Part shown: positions 488 through 7,522 of the stretch, piece after piece
Layout: each line of letters starts with the position of its first letter
How positions within the stretch are numbered: position 1 is the stretch's first letter
Assembly: GCF_000616095.1 (NCBI RefSeq)
Contig: NZ_BAMS01000001.1
Location: 1,488,001 to 1,552,000, forward strand
DNA: 64,000 bases
Direction: 5' to 3'
From: Sneathiella glossodoripedis JCM 23214
Lineage (GTDB): Bacteria; Pseudomonadota; Alphaproteobacteria; Sneathiellales; Sneathiellaceae
Notes under the pieces: model-generated
Seen by the model: the letters and a program-made list of their open reading frames with translations, nothing else
Told to the model about the DNA's origin: nothing
Database searches by the model: none
Position numbers and translations under genes: made by a program

Positions 488-1509
488 CTAATTAATCCAG
501 GCGAATATGTATCCTGCACATAGGGATCCAATGAGTGCTAGTGAAATATAAAGCGCAAACGGTTTTAGTTTGAGTACTGGGGCGATGGCAAGTGCGCCCC
601 AGATACTGACAACACCTCCCGAAACAAGAAATGCAAGCGCAGCACCGGAGGACATACCATTTTCAATCAATCCTCGGGTGAACGGAAGAGCTGCGTATCC
701 ATCAATATAGGCGGGCGCCCCGATAAATACTGCCGCTGGTATCGACCACCACTGATCTTCCCCCAGATAATCTGCCACTGCGCCGGGAGAGAGCAGTGAG
801 TTGAGTGCATATTCTGCCGCAAATGCTGGGATCAGGCAGGTCAGGATAAGTCTGGAGGTTGAGATGAACTGCCGAATAAATGCCTGTTGTCTATCCACAT
901 CCCTCCAAATATTTGCTTTAAAGGCTTATCGCTTCCACAACGGGATGCAGCAAGCTGATGTGCCAGCCGATTATCGCGCAATGCGTTCAATGCCCACTCC
1001 CGTTTGGAGAAAAAGGAAGTCACCACACCGCCTAAAATTCCCAGTCCAAATGCAGCGGTCGTTTTGCCAATCGCAAAAACTGGGCCAAGGGTCGCTGCGG
1101 TTGTCATCAACATTGCCGGATCAGTAATAGGTGAGGACAGCCAAAATGCCATTACCGGCGCCAAAGGGACGCCCGCTGTCAAAAGTCCTGCCATCAAGGG
1201 GAGCACTGTGATGCCACACACAGGCGTAATTGCTCCTATCATTGAAGCTGCAATTACAGTCTGAACAGTTCTTCCTTCAAATACTGCGGCGACTTGGGCG
1301 TCTGCGCCGCTTGCGATTATCCAAGCTGCAATCACAATTCCCGGTATGACAAGTGGTGCTATATCAAGCAACCCAATAGCCACAAACTGCAAAGTATTTA
1401 ACGCTTGTTCAGGAAAGGCCAGCACGCCATAAATGACAGCCAATACACCGACTGCCCAAAGGGTAGTTTTGGGTAGCGACCATTTTCGAATTGCAACTGG
1501 TTCCGACAT
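488..1509 (-). CDS. YraQ/DUF318-type permease, split by a -1 frame break
   Basis: An integral membrane protein of the predicted permease family PF03773 (YraQ/ArsP_1-like). The first frame (1509 down to 841) carries hydrophobic helices and the family block around G-A-I-T-P-V-C-G-I-T and S-S-P-I-T-D-P. The second frame (to 488) carries the C-terminal helices with G-A-P-A-Y-I-D-G-Y. Neither is full length; joined through the heptamer at 916-922 they give about 340 residues, normal for the family. The chosen ATG at 1509 has an AAAGGAG ribosome binding site; a TTG at 1533 is less likely. The substrate is unknown. It is divergent from a LysR regulator, its probable controller. The break may be a sequencing error (TTTT read as TTT), a real mutation, or a programmed shift. 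Confidence 0.75.
916..922 (-). other. Slippery heptamer T-TTA-AAG at the permease frame break
   Basis: Read on the minus strand, the seven bases are TTTAAAG. In the upstream frame they are phased T TTA AAG, the X-XXY-YYZ arrangement of -1 frameshift sites. A -1 slip here leads directly into the downstream frame, which has its last upstream stop at 928-926, only 3 bases before the heptamer. Whether slippage occurs is not shown by sequence. Confidence 0.4.
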
Positions 1510-1548
1510 CTCAAGGCTCCTTTTGCCTTGCAAACTACGGCAGACTGT

Positions 1549-1565
1549 TTCATTTATAAAATGAA
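1549..1565. promoter_or_regulatory. Inverted repeat, candidate LysR operator
   Basis: A perfect inverted repeat, TTCATTT-ATA-AAATGAA, sits in the divergent spacer between the permease (start 1509) and the LysR gene (start 1596). Its position about 30-40 bp from both starts suits a shared LysR-type operator. The binding protein is inferred only from position. Confidence 0.5.
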
Positions 1566-1595
1566 TAGTTTGAATTTCAGATATTGGAAAAATTA

Positions 1596-2456
1596 ATGGA
1601 TCGACTGGAAAGCGACTTGCTTCGAACCTTTGTCGAGGTTGCGAAGGCAGGCAGTATTACCGAAGGCGCTGAGCGGATTGGGCGTTCACAGTCCGCGACA
1701 AGTCTGCAAATCAAGCGCCTGGAAGAGATATTGGGCTCACCCGTCTTCTACCGTCATGGCCGAGGGATTGTTTTAAGCGAAACAGGACGCCTTCTGCTGC
1801 CAGTAGCAAATGATGTGACAGATCGCCTGGAGAGAACCGTTCGTGATTTAACCTCCAGAAAAATAGAAGGGAAATTGAGGCTCGGCATACCGGATGATCA
1901 TGGGCGTGCGCGGCTGGTTCGTATCCTTGCTGCGTTTAGCGAGCGGCATCCATTGGTCGAGCTGGAGGTTACTTGCGCTCTTAGTGCGGATTTCCCTGAT
2001 GCACTGAAAAAGGGTCGGCTCGACCTTGCGATCTATGAAGTCAGTGCCCCCTCCGAACATGAAGAGCTTTTGTTTGAAGATCCAACTGAATGGGTAACTT
2101 TGGCTGGCCGGGATTTTGCAAAAATTGAAATTTTGCCGATCGCCTTGTTTGATCATGCCTGCTGGTGGCGAGAGGCCGCTTTGAAATCGCTGGACCAGTC
2201 GGGCAGGCCTTATCGAATTGTATATTCCAGCCAGAGTGTATCAGGTATCACCGCGGCCGTAGAGGCTGGCATTGCAATTGGTTTGCTCGGGTGTTCTTCC
2301 CTTAACCGGGGGCTCGCGCGTCTTGACCGAAATATCGGGCTTGGTCCAACACCGACTTCAAAGCTGGTTATGGCAGAGAATACCTCAGCCCCTCAGGATC
2401 CGCTGATTACACTCAAAAGCGCTATACGGGAGGCATTTTCCGCCATAGACACATGA
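1596..2456 (+). CDS. LysR-family transcriptional regulator
   Basis: A LysR-type regulator of 286 residues from the ATG at 1596; a TTG at 1584 would add four residues. The N-terminal winged helix-turn-helix spans about residues 5-65 (F-V-E-V-A-K-A-G-S-I-T-E-G-A then S-A-T-S-L-Q-I-K-R-L-E). The rest is a periplasmic-binding-protein-like effector domain that normally senses a small molecule. It is transcribed away from the permease and shares with it a spacer holding a perfect 7+7 inverted repeat, so it probably controls that permease and itself. The effector is unknown. Confidence 0.88.
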   Translation: MDRLESDLLRTFVEVAKAGSITEGAERIGRSQSATSLQIKRLEEILGSPVFYRHGRGIVLSETGRLLLPVANDVTDRLERTVRDLTSRKIEGKLRLGIPDDHGRARLVRILAAFSERHPLVELEVTCALSADFPDALKKGRLDLAIYEVSAPSEHEELLFEDPTEWVTLAGRDFAKIEILPIALFDHACWWREAALKSLDQSGRPYRIVYSSQSVSGITAAVEAGIAIGLLGCSSLNRGLARLDRNIGLGPTPTSKLVMAENTSAPQDPLITLKSAIREAFSAIDT

Positions 2457-2518
2457 GTGCGCTCATCGAAGAGTATATTGTGCTCATTACCAATGGTGTG
2501 ATTGCACAGATTTTGCCT

Positions 2519-3583
2519 TTAATAGGGGCCGGGGGTACATTCGCATACTGACATTTTTCCCCAGACGGTTGTCCACCACTCGCCATTCCAACTGGCATTG
2601 TATTTCTTGCAGGTGGGCGGACATTTTTTTGGAGCATCGACTGCGTTGTTCCAGATGGGGCCTGCTTTCGCTACAAATCTATTCTGGATATCAAACACGG
2701 CTATTTCAGCTGTAGGCTCCGATGCTTCAACACCTTTACCCGTTGGATCCGAATATCCGCTAGTCCCGCAATAGTAGGAAGGCAGGTACTTACCATATTC
2801 ACGCGTCCCTACAGCGTTTGATCCAATGACAAACGCAGTGGAAAGGAAGCTTGCCGCCTGTTCAGCAAAGCCTGTCGCGTTAAAACCATTCTTACCGCAT
2901 TCCTCCATCGTACCCGCTGTTACGCCCCACGGGACAATGACAAATTCAGGTTCCAGCTTTTTTAATGCTTTTATTGCCGTTCCGGGATTGTATTCGCTGG
3001 GCACATAGGCGTCAGCACAGACCATTAGCGATGTTTTTCCAAATGGTGTTTGCACGGTTTTGACATCTGATATCGGTCCGGGCATGTAACTGCATTGATC
3101 TTCATTCAGTATTTTCCTGCAATCTTCCGGATTGAATGCATTTTTCAGGACATTGAATTTACGGTGGTGAATAACAATCTCACCCTGCGGGCTAACCAAT
3201 ATCCCTGAGTCATAGGCGTAATACGCATCTGGCAGAGAACCTTCACCTGCTTTGGGCCCCTTTTCAGCGAGGCCAGCAGCTACCCAGATTCCGATAGTTT
3301 TTGCAATGTCCACAAATTGGTCGCTATGTCCTCCCGGAATGGGCTCGGCTTTGGTAAAAATCTCAGGATTAAGCCAACCGAATACCGAACTTTCCGGGAA
3401 TACCACTAACTGGGCGCCTTCTTCTTTCGCTTTCATCGCGAGCATCTTCATTTTTTGAAAATTACCCGCATCAGCAGATTGTAGCTGTATCGCAGCAACT
3501 TTGACTGATATAGGCAAGGTTTTAGAATGGAGTGTGCCAGTTGAAAGGAAAATGATTGCAAGAAAGGATAGAAAAATTTTCAT
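2519..3583 (-). CDS. Secreted carbon-nitrogen hydrolase (nitrilase superfamily, biotinidase/vanin-like)
   Basis: A 354-residue protein with an N-terminal signal peptide (hydrophobic core at about residues 3-17) and a nitrilase fold. The catalytic triad is visible: Glu64 in F-P-E-S, Lys142 in H-H-R-K-F, and Cys189 in M-V-C-A-D. Nitrilases of this fold cleave amides or related C-N bonds; a secreted form with this layout recalls vanin/biotinidase, which act on pantetheine or biocytin. The actual substrate cannot be told. The tail is unusual: the last 40 residues carry four cysteines in C-P-P-T-C and C-E-C. The start at 3583 has an AAAGGAG ribosome binding site 6 bases upstream. It converges on the LysR gene and appears monocistronic. 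Confidence 0.8.
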   Translation of the reverse strand: MKIFLSFLAIIFLSTGTLHSKTLPISVKVAAIQLQSADAGNFQKMKMLAMKAKEEGAQLVVFPESSVFGWLNPEIFTKAEPIPGGHSDQFVDIAKTIGIWVAAGLAEKGPKAGEGSLPDAYYAYDSGILVSPQGEIVIHHRKFNVLKNAFNPEDCRKILNEDQCSYMPGPISDVKTVQTPFGKTSLMVCADAYVPSEYNPGTAIKALKKLEPEFVIVPWGVTAGTMEECGKNGFNATGFAEQAASFLSTAFVIGSNAVGTREYGKYLPSYYCGTSGYSDPTGKGVEASEPTAEIAVFDIQNRFVAKAGPIWNNAVDAPKKCPPTCKKYNASWNGEWWTTVWGKMSVCECTPGPY

Positions 3584-3880
3584 GTTACTCTCCTTTATCT
3601 GAGTTGATATCTGACTGAGGGAAAGCAACAGAAGCGTTAATCGTCATGGACGCAGAAACAGACCTGCAAGATTGGATAGCAATCTGATTGAAACCTATGT
3701 GGGTAATTTAATAATATCAATTCAATTATGGTACCGGTATACAACAACGCGTAGAATTTTAAAATACAAATATCTAATATTTGTGCGGGTGGGGCCTGTT
3801 CGCCGCAATTTCACCCCAATATTGCCCTTCATTCGGTATAGAACAGCCGTAATTGAATTCGATACTGCAATCCTCAACAG
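3584..3880. other. AT-rich divergent spacer without a gene
   Basis: About 300 bp between the nitrilase-like gene and the sortase-target gene, which are transcribed apart. It is AT-rich and must hold both promoters, but no clear -35/-10 pair, operator or RNA gene was found. A 72-codon open frame starting at 3672 lacks a ribosome binding site and recognisable protein features. Confidence 0.5.
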
Positions 3881-5971
3881 ATGGGGATGATGCAGATGAA
3901 AACTTCGATTGAAGCAGGGGAACGACGAGCGGTGTCCGGGTGGCTGATAGCGGCAGATAATCCGATAGTCAAAGGCTGGAACAAATTTTTACAATTACTT
4001 CTCTGTCTGAACCTTTTGGGAATTACGGCACTTTGGGCATGTAGTGCCTTCGCAGATTCCCGATCAGGAAGCGAGCTTGTCTTTCGCACTGTGGCGAGTG
4101 AGACGATGAGCGAACAGGTTATCCCGTCGATGGCACTAGCGACAAAAATATCATCTGTAGTCACAGGTCACATCATCCGTACAACGGTAACACAGGAATT
4201 TCAGAACCCTACCCGTCATTGGGTGGAAGGGGTTTATTATTTTCCTCTTCCTGATGACGCGGCCGTTGATTCAATGACCCTCAAGATCGGAGAAAGGGTT
4301 ATCAAATCAGAAATTCAGGAGAAAGAAGAAGCCCGTAAAACCTTCGCCAAAGCTGCGGCATCGGGAAAAGTAGCGGCCTTATTGGATCAATATCGGCCCA
4401 ATACGTTTTCTACCAAGGTTGCCAATGTTGAACCGGGCGGATCTGTAACTGTTGAAATTTCCTTTCAATCTCTAGCGAAACAGGACGGACCGCTGTTTCG
4501 GTATGTTATGCCGCAAACTATCACGCCCCGCTATAATCCCGGTCGCGGTGACGATCGATCGATACCGGAAACAGTCAACGGTGATTTCACTCCGCAAAAT
4601 GAATTTTCAATTATCGTAAAAAATGGTGCTCAATTGGCTGATCTCTCAAGCAGCAGTCATATGGTGATCCATAAAAAAATGCCTAACGGAGACATTCGTC
4701 TTTTCCTTGAGGGCGGTACTATACCGACCAGTAAGGATTTTGTTCTTGAGTGGCGTTACGCTGAAGAAGCGACAACGAAGGCAATTCTTTTCAAAGAAGA
4801 AGCGGATGGTGCACATTATTTGCTGGGAATTATCCCGCCGCCATCTCCCGCGCAGGATCAATCTGTAAAGCGAAGAGATATCACATTTATACTGGATGTG
4901 TCTGGGTCCATGCAGGGTGATGGGCTCGAACAGGGGAGGGAGGCACTTCTGCAGGCATTAGATCTGCTGAAGCCTGTAGATCGTTTTCAGATTGTAATTT
5001 TTAACGACAATTATCAGACATTCTTTCAAAACTCTGTTCCAGCTTCTTCTGTGAATTTAGGAATAGCCCGTGAGCGTATAGCAGGATTGACAGCGGAACG
5101 AGGAACGGAAATGTATCCTGCTCTGCAGGCAGCGCTAAGCCAGCCGTGGGATAGGAATTTTGATCGCCAGATTGTTTTTTTAACAGATGGTGCCGTCACT
5201 AACGAAGAAGAGTTGTTCGCGTTGGTCAACGAACAATTGGGGGATGCACGTCTGTTCACTGTGGGATTGGGGGCAGCGCCAAATAGTTGGTTCATGCGAA
5301 AATCTGCCGAGTTTGGCCGGGGGTTAAATGTTCAGATTGTTGATATTGCACAGGCGGCATCTATTTTGACTGATTTGTTCGAAGATATTTCGAGCCCTAG
5401 CCTTCGTAATATTCAACTGGAGTTGGGGCAGGGAGCCGATAGTTATCCGAAAATTTCCCCTGATCTATATGGTGATCGGCCCACTATTTTTTTGAGCCGC
5501 ATTCCACACGAAAATTTGAAACCGTCTCAAAAATTTCAGCTACTCGCGGAAACTGCCAATAAAGACAAATTGTCAATTGATATGAATTCGGTTCCCTTGC
5601 AGGAACAAGCTGGTATCGCAAAGCTTTGGGCCAGGTACAAAGTTGAAGGATTGATCGATGCAAAAGCTCGCGGGATGGATGCTGACATTGTGCGCGAAGG
5701 AATTCTAGACGTAGCCTTACGGCACCAGATCATGAGCCCTTATACAAGTTTTGTCGCTGTCGATAAAACGCCTAGACGTGTTCAGGACGATTTCCTGAAA
5801 AAAGCAGGTTTGGATGCTTCGGCACCTGCGGATCTGGTTGCGAGTGCAACCCATGTTCAAACCTTAGCAACTGCAACGCCGATGAAAAAATATGCTGTTT
5901 TTGGGATTATCGCCATCATATCGGCAATATTACTGCATATCTTCCTGATGAAAGGAGGTGTTCGCAGATGA
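3881..5971 (+). CDS. Marine proteobacterial sortase target protein (VIT + vWA domains)
   Basis: A 696-residue surface-type protein. Visible in order: a membrane/signal segment at about residues 36-58, a VIT (inter-alpha-trypsin inhibitor) domain at about 80-200, a von Willebrand A domain at about 330-490 with the MIDAS motif D339-x-S341-x-S343, and a C-terminal sorting region. That region has L-A-T-A-T-P at 662-667, a hydrophobic helix, and a basic R-R end. This matches the family TIGR03788, encoded next to a class GN sortase in Gram-negative marine bacteria. The sortase gene overlaps it by 4 bp, so the two are translationally coupled. The sorting motif lacks the usual L-P-x-T-G form. Start choice is uncertain: four ATG codons lie in frame between 3881 and 3896. 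The ligand and cell location of the anchored protein are unknown. Confidence 0.9.
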   Translation: MGMMQMKTSIEAGERRAVSGWLIAADNPIVKGWNKFLQLLLCLNLLGITALWACSAFADSRSGSELVFRTVASETMSEQVIPSMALATKISSVVTGHIIRTTVTQEFQNPTRHWVEGVYYFPLPDDAAVDSMTLKIGERVIKSEIQEKEEARKTFAKAAASGKVAALLDQYRPNTFSTKVANVEPGGSVTVEISFQSLAKQDGPLFRYVMPQTITPRYNPGRGDDRSIPETVNGDFTPQNEFSIIVKNGAQLADLSSSSHMVIHKKMPNGDIRLFLEGGTIPTSKDFVLEWRYAEEATTKAILFKEEADGAHYLLGIIPPPSPAQDQSVKRRDITFILDVSGSMQGDGLEQGREALLQALDLLKPVDRFQIVIFNDNYQTFFQNSVPASSVNLGIARERIAGLTAERGTEMYPALQAALSQPWDRNFDRQIVFLTDGAVTNEEELFALVNEQLGDARLFTVGLGAAPNSWFMRKSAEFGRGLNVQIVDIAQAASILTDLFEDISSPSLRNIQLELGQGADSYPKISPDLYGDRPTIFLSRIPHENLKPSQKFQLLAETANKDKLSIDMNSVPLQEQAGIAKLWARYKVEGLIDAKARGMDADIVREGILDVALRHQIMSPYTSFVAVDKTPRRVQDDFLKKAGLDASAPADLVASATHVQTLATATPMKKYAVFGIIAIISAILLHIFLMKGGVRR

Positions 5972-6525
5972 TCCGTGTCCTTCTTGTCGCTGGAATGGTG
6001 GTTTTGGCGGCTCTTGGTGTTTGGCAATTGGGTAAGGCGGGATTACTCGCAGCAAAGGCATGGGCTGCCCCGGTTCTTATCGAAAAGGCCTTTAACCGAT
6101 TTGATCAAAATGGAGAACCCGCGCTTCCCTGGCCGTGGGCTGATAGCTACCCGGTAGCTACATTGGAATTTCCAAAGCAGAGGATAAAGCGCTTCATTCT
6201 GTCAGAGAGAAATATGCGCAATCTGGCATTTGCGCCTTCTTTGCAGGAAATAGCCGGCCATAATGTGATCTTTGCTCATCGTGATACTCATTTTGCTTTT
6301 TTACGCGATATCGAACTCGATGATGTAATGAGTTTTCGTAAAGCAGGTGATGCAAGCCAATTATGGCAGGTCAACAGGGTTCAGATTGTTAGAAAAGACG
6401 AATTATATATTCCCGATAACCTGCAAGATGAGCTTATTCTGCTCGTAACCTGCTATCCTTTTGAAGGTTTTGACGCAGGTGGGGACTTGCGGTATGTGGC
6501 GTGGCTGTCCAAATCCGCAACTTAG
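5968..6525 (+). CDS. Class GN (Gram-negative) sortase
   Basis: A 185-residue transpeptidase of the proteobacterial class GN sortases (TIGR03784). An N-terminal membrane helix covers about residues 5-22, followed by the class signature W-P-W-A-D near residue 55. Catalytic residues are visible as His104 (F-A-H-R-D-T-H), Cys162 (V-T-C-Y-P-F) and Arg175 (D-L-R-Y-V). Sortases cut a C-terminal sorting signal and transfer the protein to an acceptor; in Gram-negative cells the acceptor is not established. It overlaps the end of the VIT/vWA protein by 4 bp and, as in other genomes with this pair, that neighbour is presumably its only substrate. Confidence 0.9.
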   Translation: MIRVLLVAGMVVLAALGVWQLGKAGLLAAKAWAAPVLIEKAFNRFDQNGEPALPWPWADSYPVATLEFPKQRIKRFILSERNMRNLAFAPSLQEIAGHNVIFAHRDTHFAFLRDIELDDVMSFRKAGDASQLWQVNRVQIVRKDELYIPDNLQDELILLVTCYPFEGFDAGGDLRYVAWLSKSAT

Positions 6526-6718: not shown

Positions 6719-7522
6719 GTGTCATTCTTACACATACTGGTATTGGCAGCGGTTCAGGGGATTACAGAATTTCTTCCTATTTCCTCCAGTGGTCATCTGT
6801 TACTCGTCCCTTTACTCACTGACTGGCAGGATCAAGGAATTGAACTTGATATTGCAACGCATGTGGGATCCTTGCTTGCTGTTATTCTCTATTTTCGTGC
6901 TGATATCTTTCGAATGGGAAAAGCTTTGGCAGGTGTTGGTTCAGCTGATGATGTCATAGGGGGGCGTCAGCTGTTTTTTCACACTGTTGTCGGCTCAATA
7001 CCAGTTGTAATTGCCGGCGCAATCTTGCTGTTTATTGTGAAAATTGACTTACGATCACTGCTATTGATTGCAATGACAACACTCTTTTTCGGCCTGGCAC
7101 TCGGTGTCGCTGATTATTTTTTCAAGGGCAGGCGAAGTCTGCGTGAGATGAATAGCTGGGACGCTCTTTTTATCGGAATTTTTCAGATATTTGCGCTTTT
7201 TCCCGGAACAAGCCGTTCGGGTGTCACCATGACGGCTGCGCTCATTCGCGGGCTGGACCGAACAACTGCCGCTCATTTTTCCATGCTGCTCTCTATTCCT
7301 GTAATATTTGCCGCTGGCATCGCCGCCACGTACAAGAGTCTCATAGGGGGCGATTTTTCTTTTGGACTGGCGGCGCTATTGGCAGCCGTTGTATCCTTTG
7401 TAATTGCTTATCTCGTGATCAGGACACTCATGGTGTGGATCAATAAAATTGGCTTTATGCCGTTTGTAATTTACCGGATTATTCTGGGTGGGGCACTGCT
7501 TGCAATTTACGCTACAGCTTAA
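6719..7522 (+). CDS. uppP: Undecaprenyl-diphosphatase
   Basis: A 267-residue polytopic membrane enzyme of the BacA/UppP family. It removes a phosphate from undecaprenyl diphosphate on the outer face of the inner membrane, recycling the lipid carrier for peptidoglycan and other glycans. Both family signatures are present: E-F-L-P-I-S-S-S-G-H near residue 17 and P-G-T-S-R-S-G near residue 162. The start is a GTG at 6719. It stands alone about 190 bp after the sortase and upstream of a DUF3108 protein, within a run of envelope genes. Confidence 0.95.
   Translation: MSFLHILVLAAVQGITEFLPISSSGHLLLVPLLTDWQDQGIELDIATHVGSLLAVILYFRADIFRMGKALAGVGSADDVIGGRQLFFHTVVGSIPVVIAGAILLFIVKIDLRSLLLIAMTTLFFGLALGVADYFFKGRRSLREMNSWDALFIGIFQIFALFPGTSRSGVTMTAALIRGLDRTTAAHFSMLLSIPVIFAAGIAATYKSLIGGDFSFGLAALLAAVVSFVIAYLVIRTLMVWINKIGFMPFVIYRIILGGALLAIYATA

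Follow-up and report, generated by a model that had tools for sequence, protein, structure and literature searches.

Can a sortase serve a target whose C-terminal tail carries no LPxTG, and on what would recognition then rest? The question is raised by two overlapping genes in a 64,000-nucleotide stretch (hereafter the window) of the genome of Sneathiella glossodoripedis JCM 23214, which encode a VIT/vWA protein and a class GN-like sortase. The class GN system was named as a dedicated Gram-negative sortase with a single adjoining target (PMC3237569), and the literature accessible to us yielded no experimental study of a class GN sortase. The original prediction for this locus described a dedicated pair with a 4-bp overlap, in which L-A-T-A-T-P replaces LPxTG before the membrane helix of the target, and a sortase with an intact triad that might accept this variant. 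The two reading frames are as described, sharing ATGA at 5968–5971, and the target is organized as follows:

3881–5971, plus strand: VIT/vWA sortase target, 696 aa (TIGR03788, 558.4 bits against a cut-off of 551.65)
3986–4054, plus strand: hydrophobic core of a long signal peptide, residues 36–58 (sequence and N-terminus comparison)
4142–4465, plus strand: VIT domain, residues 88–195 (PF08487, 3.4e-34)
4877–5326, plus strand: vWA domain, residues 333–482 (PF13768, 1.1e-15)
5861–5878, plus strand: sorting signal T661-L-A-T-A-T666, P4 to P2' (register from the genus alignment)
5891–5950, plus strand: C-terminal membrane helix, residues 671–690 (sequence; tail position conserved)
5951–5968, plus strand: basic tail KGGVRR (sequence)
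5968–6525, plus strand: class GN-like sortase, 185 aa, with an N-terminal membrane helix (TIGR03784, PF04203, AlphaFold2 model)

The target scores above the TIGR03788 cut-off, contains both the VIT and vWA domains and adjoins a sortase gene. Its tail has the helix and the basic residues, but TLATAT lacks the P4 Leu, P3 Pro and P1' Gly of an LPxTG-like tail, and the protein is a variant of TIGR03788, not a standard member. The signal peptide is likely cut after AFA, and the mature protein is probably fixed in the periplasm or to the sacculus.

The sortase matches TIGR03784 at 7.9e-40 with 136.3 bits, under the cut-off of 158.25; as only two of ten Sneathiella sortases score above that value, it belongs to a divergent branch of TIGR03784. 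The His-Cys-Arg triad and the sortase fold are present, and the cognate TIGR03788 neighbour is the only target detected in the genome. Class D membership is contradicted by a score of 38.1 against the 165 bits of NF033746, and class E, which reads LAxTG with Leu at P4, by a register that places the Leu of the window signal at P3. The triad (His104, Cys162, Arg175) is intact as predicted, His104 being invariant and Cys162 and Arg175 each at least 90% conserved among 85 sortases. The closest named locus is that of Sneathiella sp. NORP203, whose sortase has 48% identity and whose loop is the same as that of G016, another genome of the genus. AlphaFold2 models have a pLDDT of 96.1 for the window sortase and 94.8 for a canonical relative.

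That the two genes form a dedicated pair was borne out by their co-occurrence among 24 Sneathiella genomes, nine of which have both and 14 neither, while one fragmentary case has the sortase alone at a contig end. Except at contig ends, target and sortase reading frames are intact in all carriers. The pair is flanked there by an arginase-family gene and by uppP, its constant right-hand neighbour:

6719–7522, plus strand: uppP (undecaprenyl-diphosphatase)

In the seven pair-less Sneathiella inspected (loci L226–L232), the arginase-family gene lies near uppP with at most small or unidentified open reading frames between them. This interval is an empty site, and target and sortase are present or missing as one unit at a single position. 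A functional link between uppP and the pair was considered and rejected: species that lack the pair still have uppP in place, and the association is one of synteny. Across six genomes, no second substrate was found with a profile of 12 tails, although a very different tail would escape it; the paired target had E-values between 1e-17 and 1e-23 and the next match one of 0.058, so that the paired target is the sole match in each. Genes for a permease, a nitrilase-like protein and a LysR-type regulator (488–3628 of the window) separate the arginase-family gene from the pair, an arrangement confined to this genome among the Sneathiella inspected. Outside the genus, genome G024 (locus L101), from another genus of Sneathiella's family, has a pair with the canonical signal LPQGAT that groups with the rest of the pairs, which suggests separate acquisition; pairs therefore probably also transfer between lineages.

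We read sorting signals in 130 target-sortase pairs that were left after duplicate removal; the genomes came from Sneathiella, from a sample of the class, from GTDB contigs with names and from an additional family. Each tail was read beside its own sortase, and the signals of 16 of the 130 rows were assigned by hand from the tails. Class GN signals in this set usually read [L/F/Y]-P-x-[T/G]-A-[T/S]. Sneathiella, Kordiimonas and family f105 have lost the hydrophobic P4 residue, and their signal becomes G-P-x-[T/G]-A-[T/S/A]. Within Sneathiella the tails align as HGPQTAT, HAPQTAT, HGLQTAT (genome G010) and SALATAT, beside TLATATP in the window. The last therefore reads P4 Thr, P3 Leu, P2 Ala, P1 Thr, P1' Ala and P2' Thr, since the full-length HGLQTAT of G010 has Gly at P4 and Leu at P3, and cleavage would fall between T664 and A665. 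The tail is thus non-canonical, as originally predicted, with the register displaced by one residue, the Leu standing at P3 and not P4. Pro at P3 has given way to Leu twice in the genus, in G010 and in the window together with its sister G005 (TLATAT and ALATAT). The original prediction saw only T-A-T-P-like features as kept; T-A-T is in fact the norm for the family, with Ala at P1' in 116 and Thr at P2' in 107 of the 130 pairs. Even the cut-site Thr at P1 is not fixed among class GN pairs, Gly replacing it in 35 of 130 signals (LPxGAT, GPAGAT).

Whether close homologues share a different motif has a mixed answer: the relatives have G-P-[Q/K]-T-A-[T/S], which is unlike both LPxTG and the TLATAT of the window. 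The first two motif positions have thus drifted throughout the lineage, and the window tail has gone one step further. The change to TLATAT is more than chance, because the tail is homologous throughout the genus and the sortases of the same clade carry matching changes. Both this co-variation and the clade-wide switch from Leu to Gly at P4 had been missed by the original prediction. The sortase positions concerned, with the triad, are these:

6235–6273, plus strand: shortened β3-β4 segment, residues 90–102, six residues shorter than in canonical relatives and ending in F102
6271–6273, plus strand: F102, two before the catalytic His (column comparison)
6277–6279, plus strand: catalytic His104 (alignment)
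6403–6405, plus strand: Leu146, in the β6-β7 loop
6451–6453, plus strand: catalytic Cys162 (alignment)
6490–6492, plus strand: catalytic Arg175 (alignment)

The position two before the catalytic His (His-2) is Phe or Tyr in all 22 pairs that combine a short loop with Gly, Ala or Thr at P4, and in no others; it is Ala, Gly, Ser or Thr in 105 of 105 pairs with a hydrophobic P4, and among all aligned sortase columns it is the best separator of the two groups. Position 146 is Leu or Ile in each of the 22 pairs with a small P4, and mostly small or polar in the others, 94 of the 105 hydrophobic-P4 pairs being without a bulky residue there (11 have one). Twenty of the 22 have 13 residues separating the conserved Gly/Ala-Pro from His-Arg-Asp and two have 16, where 19 are usual; the β3-β4 loop is thus 3–6 residues shorter. 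AlphaFold2 predicts a tight hairpin (E91-95/E98-102) at this segment in the window sortase and coil in the canonical relative. Loop shortening alone was rejected as the determinant, because Sphingomonadales and Wenzhouxiangella have short loops and have kept an L/M-P signal. A further 398 Pseudomonadota genomes showed no exception in any readable tail, and no aromatic His-2 of independent origin outside the clade; the one new aromatic match was another Kordiimonas, with the signal GPQTAT. Three of the 130 pairs have lost the P4 hydrophobe yet have a long loop: these loci from other alphaproteobacteria (L148, L152 and L153) carry GVPTAT, NTRTAT or HTRTAT, with canonical loop length and Thr, Asn or Ser at His-2, and possibly represent an intermediate state. 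Together with the short loops of Sphingomonadales and Wenzhouxiangella and the 11 hydrophobic-P4 pairs with a bulky residue 146, they weigh against functional matching of signal and cleft.

Solved class A enzymes indicate where these positions would lie relative to the substrate. A140 of S. pyogenes SrtA, which stands at His-2, touches P3 Pro and P1 Thr, and P4 Leu is in contact with valines of the β6-β7 loop (PMC9520033). His-2 accordingly maps to S1/S3 and not directly to S4, which counts against matching with P4. L146 falls at or beside one of the P4-contacting valines in an alignment to the class A chain, a placement that is approximate as this loop is variable. In S. aureus SrtA, residue 118 (His-2) helps to set specificity, and engineered forms with V168M or V168F among their β6-β7 changes take Ala, Asp and Ser, or Ala, at P4 (PMC9126251).

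On a target-core tree built without the tails, the aromatic, short-loop pairs form one clade (one change, SH-aLRT 99). Given this single origin, the correlation between P4 and the enzyme represents one evolutionary event, and the counts of 22 and 105 are not independent. A sortase tree made without the loop and His-2 columns requires two changes and is poorly resolved. Loss of the P4 hydrophobe, L148 and L152 included, is likewise one change on the target-core tree, which suggests but does not prove that P4 was lost first and that the aromatic residue came later.

The reading that we favour, with a probability of roughly 60%, is a one-enzyme, one-substrate system in which signal and cleft have been re-matched by compensatory 'bump for hole' respecification. 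The signal peptide would export the target, whose C-terminal helix and basic tail would keep it in the inner membrane, and the membrane-bound sortase would cut T-L-A-T|A-T-P between T664 and A665 through C162. A periplasmic amine, in the simplest case that of diaminopimelate in lipid II or peptidoglycan, would then receive the freed carboxylate. In an ancestor of Sneathiella, Kordiimonas and a further alphaproteobacterial family, the signal would have lost its large hydrophobic P4 and the cleft would have changed, with a shorter β3-β4 loop, a small His-2 becoming Phe or Tyr and position 146 becoming Leu or Ile. Bulk would in effect have shifted from substrate to enzyme, P4 going from Leu to Gly as small residues gave way to bulky ones at two positions of the enzyme. 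These bulky side chains may occupy the space of P4, and partly that of P3; recognition would therefore rest on x-T-A-[T/S] and a fixed distance to the helix, and such relaxed recognition would explain why P3 Pro drifted to Leu in the window genome. That the result is a sortase lineage blind to P4, tolerant of the loss of P3 Pro, orthogonal to LPxTG/LPxTA sortases and co-evolving with its sole substrate seems to us an evenly balanced proposition. The narrower expectation, that the intact sortase probably accepts its non-canonical signal, is supported by these comparisons.

The same pattern could arise if the motif, the aromatic His-2, Leu146 and the short loop were merely linked by descent on one long branch, having drifted without functional matching. 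The single origin on the target-core tree fits such drift, as do columns outside the cleft (P35, L26 and A28, near the membrane helix), which separate the groups almost as well; we nevertheless consider it unlikely, because the top separating column is His-2 and another is a β6-β7 loop residue, and because the enzyme sites went from small to bulky as P4 went from bulky to small, a state maintained across three families. Erosion of the signal in a pair that is being lost, with a sortase that no longer needs it, would account for the absence of both genes from 14 of 24 Sneathiella genomes and for the variability of the first two motif positions within the genus. Decay of this kind is improbable, since the triad, x-T-A-[T/S], the helix and the basic tail are all retained, the carriers' reading frames are intact, the only lone gene lies at a contig end and absence affects the whole pair.

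The original register would instead keep Leu at P4 at the cost of one deleted residue (L-A-[x]-T-A-T), and the signal would then be of an LAxT type resembling class E. Signals of the LAQTAT type do occur in other class GN pairs (loci L146 and L160); against this stand the full-length tail of G010, the gap-free alignment of the window and G005 tails to GPQTAT and a genus ancestor that most likely lacked P4 Leu, and we regard this register as very improbable. More room is left for the proposal that the sortase releases its target by hydrolysis, or links it to an acceptor other than peptidoglycan such as an outer-membrane lipid, a glycan or a protein. The literature found names no acceptor for any class GN sortase, and related VIT/vWA proteins carry GlyGly-CTERM or PEP-CTERM tails, which belong to non-sortase systems (PMC3237569); the fold and triad of the window sortase are of the transpeptidase type, and this alternative, although the least doubtful of the four, is still rather doubtful.

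Compared with known systems, the window pair shares with the class GN or marine sortases (TIGR03784 and TIGR03788) the gene order, VIT/vWA target, adjoining sortase, single target, triad and tail architecture, and differs in a sortase score below the cut-off, a loop six residues shorter, an aromatic His-2 and a signal without P4 Leu and P3 Pro. Class D supplies the closest solved relative by sequence, Bacillus SrtD (PDB 2ln7, 5e-22), and the top structural match by VIA-align, C. perfringens SrtD5 (PDB 4d70, Z 16.6, rmsd 2.5 over 140 residues), which is tied with others within 1. Class D sortases share the T-A cleavage site according to the literature, but are Gram-positive, read LPxTA with P4 Leu and have no single dedicated neighbour. 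In class E, the P3 departure of S. coelicolor SrtE1 (LAxTG) has been tied to an aromatic residue of the S3 region, Tyr229 (PMC5148588). SrtE1 thus resembles the window pair in combining a natural change at P3 with an aromatic residue; unlike it, SrtE1 keeps P4 Leu, has a longer loop and places the aromatic residue at the position of S. aureus SrtA 104 in the β3-β4 loop, not at His-2. The evolved S. aureus SrtA variants F40 and F1-21 likewise join a bulky β6-β7 residue to a small P4 (Ala, Ser, Asp) (PMC9126251), but they are engineered, retain P3 Pro and TG and have no aromatic His-2.

Few parts of sorting signals are as constant as P4 Leu and P3 Pro, and here a natural family has dropped both; the pair is likely a natural case of enzyme and signal re-matching. 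With the co-changed enzyme positions named above, the evolution of sortase specificity can be tested directly, and the clade's sortase is a possible orthogonal ligase. The motif series also sharpens the question of the role of Gram-negative sortases. Searches for LPxTG would overlook the clade of Sneathiella, Kordiimonas and f105, and we propose [L/F/Y/G]-[P/L]-x-[T/G]-A-[T/S] as a tail model for the family.

Both ends of the target gene have a further feature. In the basic tail, the KGGV codons AAAGGAGGT (5951–5959) double as a strong Shine-Dalgarno sequence for the overlapping sortase ATG. At the N-terminus (3881–4054 of the window), an N-region of about 30–40 residues (about 35 in the window) precedes the signal-peptide core in targets of close Sneathiella relatives. 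Among these a stretch P-[IVL]-[VL]-x-G-W-x-[RK]-[LF]-x-[RQ]-L-L is conserved, which the N-terminus comparison found to be absent from the targets of f105 relatives. The N-region resembles the extended signal peptides of autotransporters.
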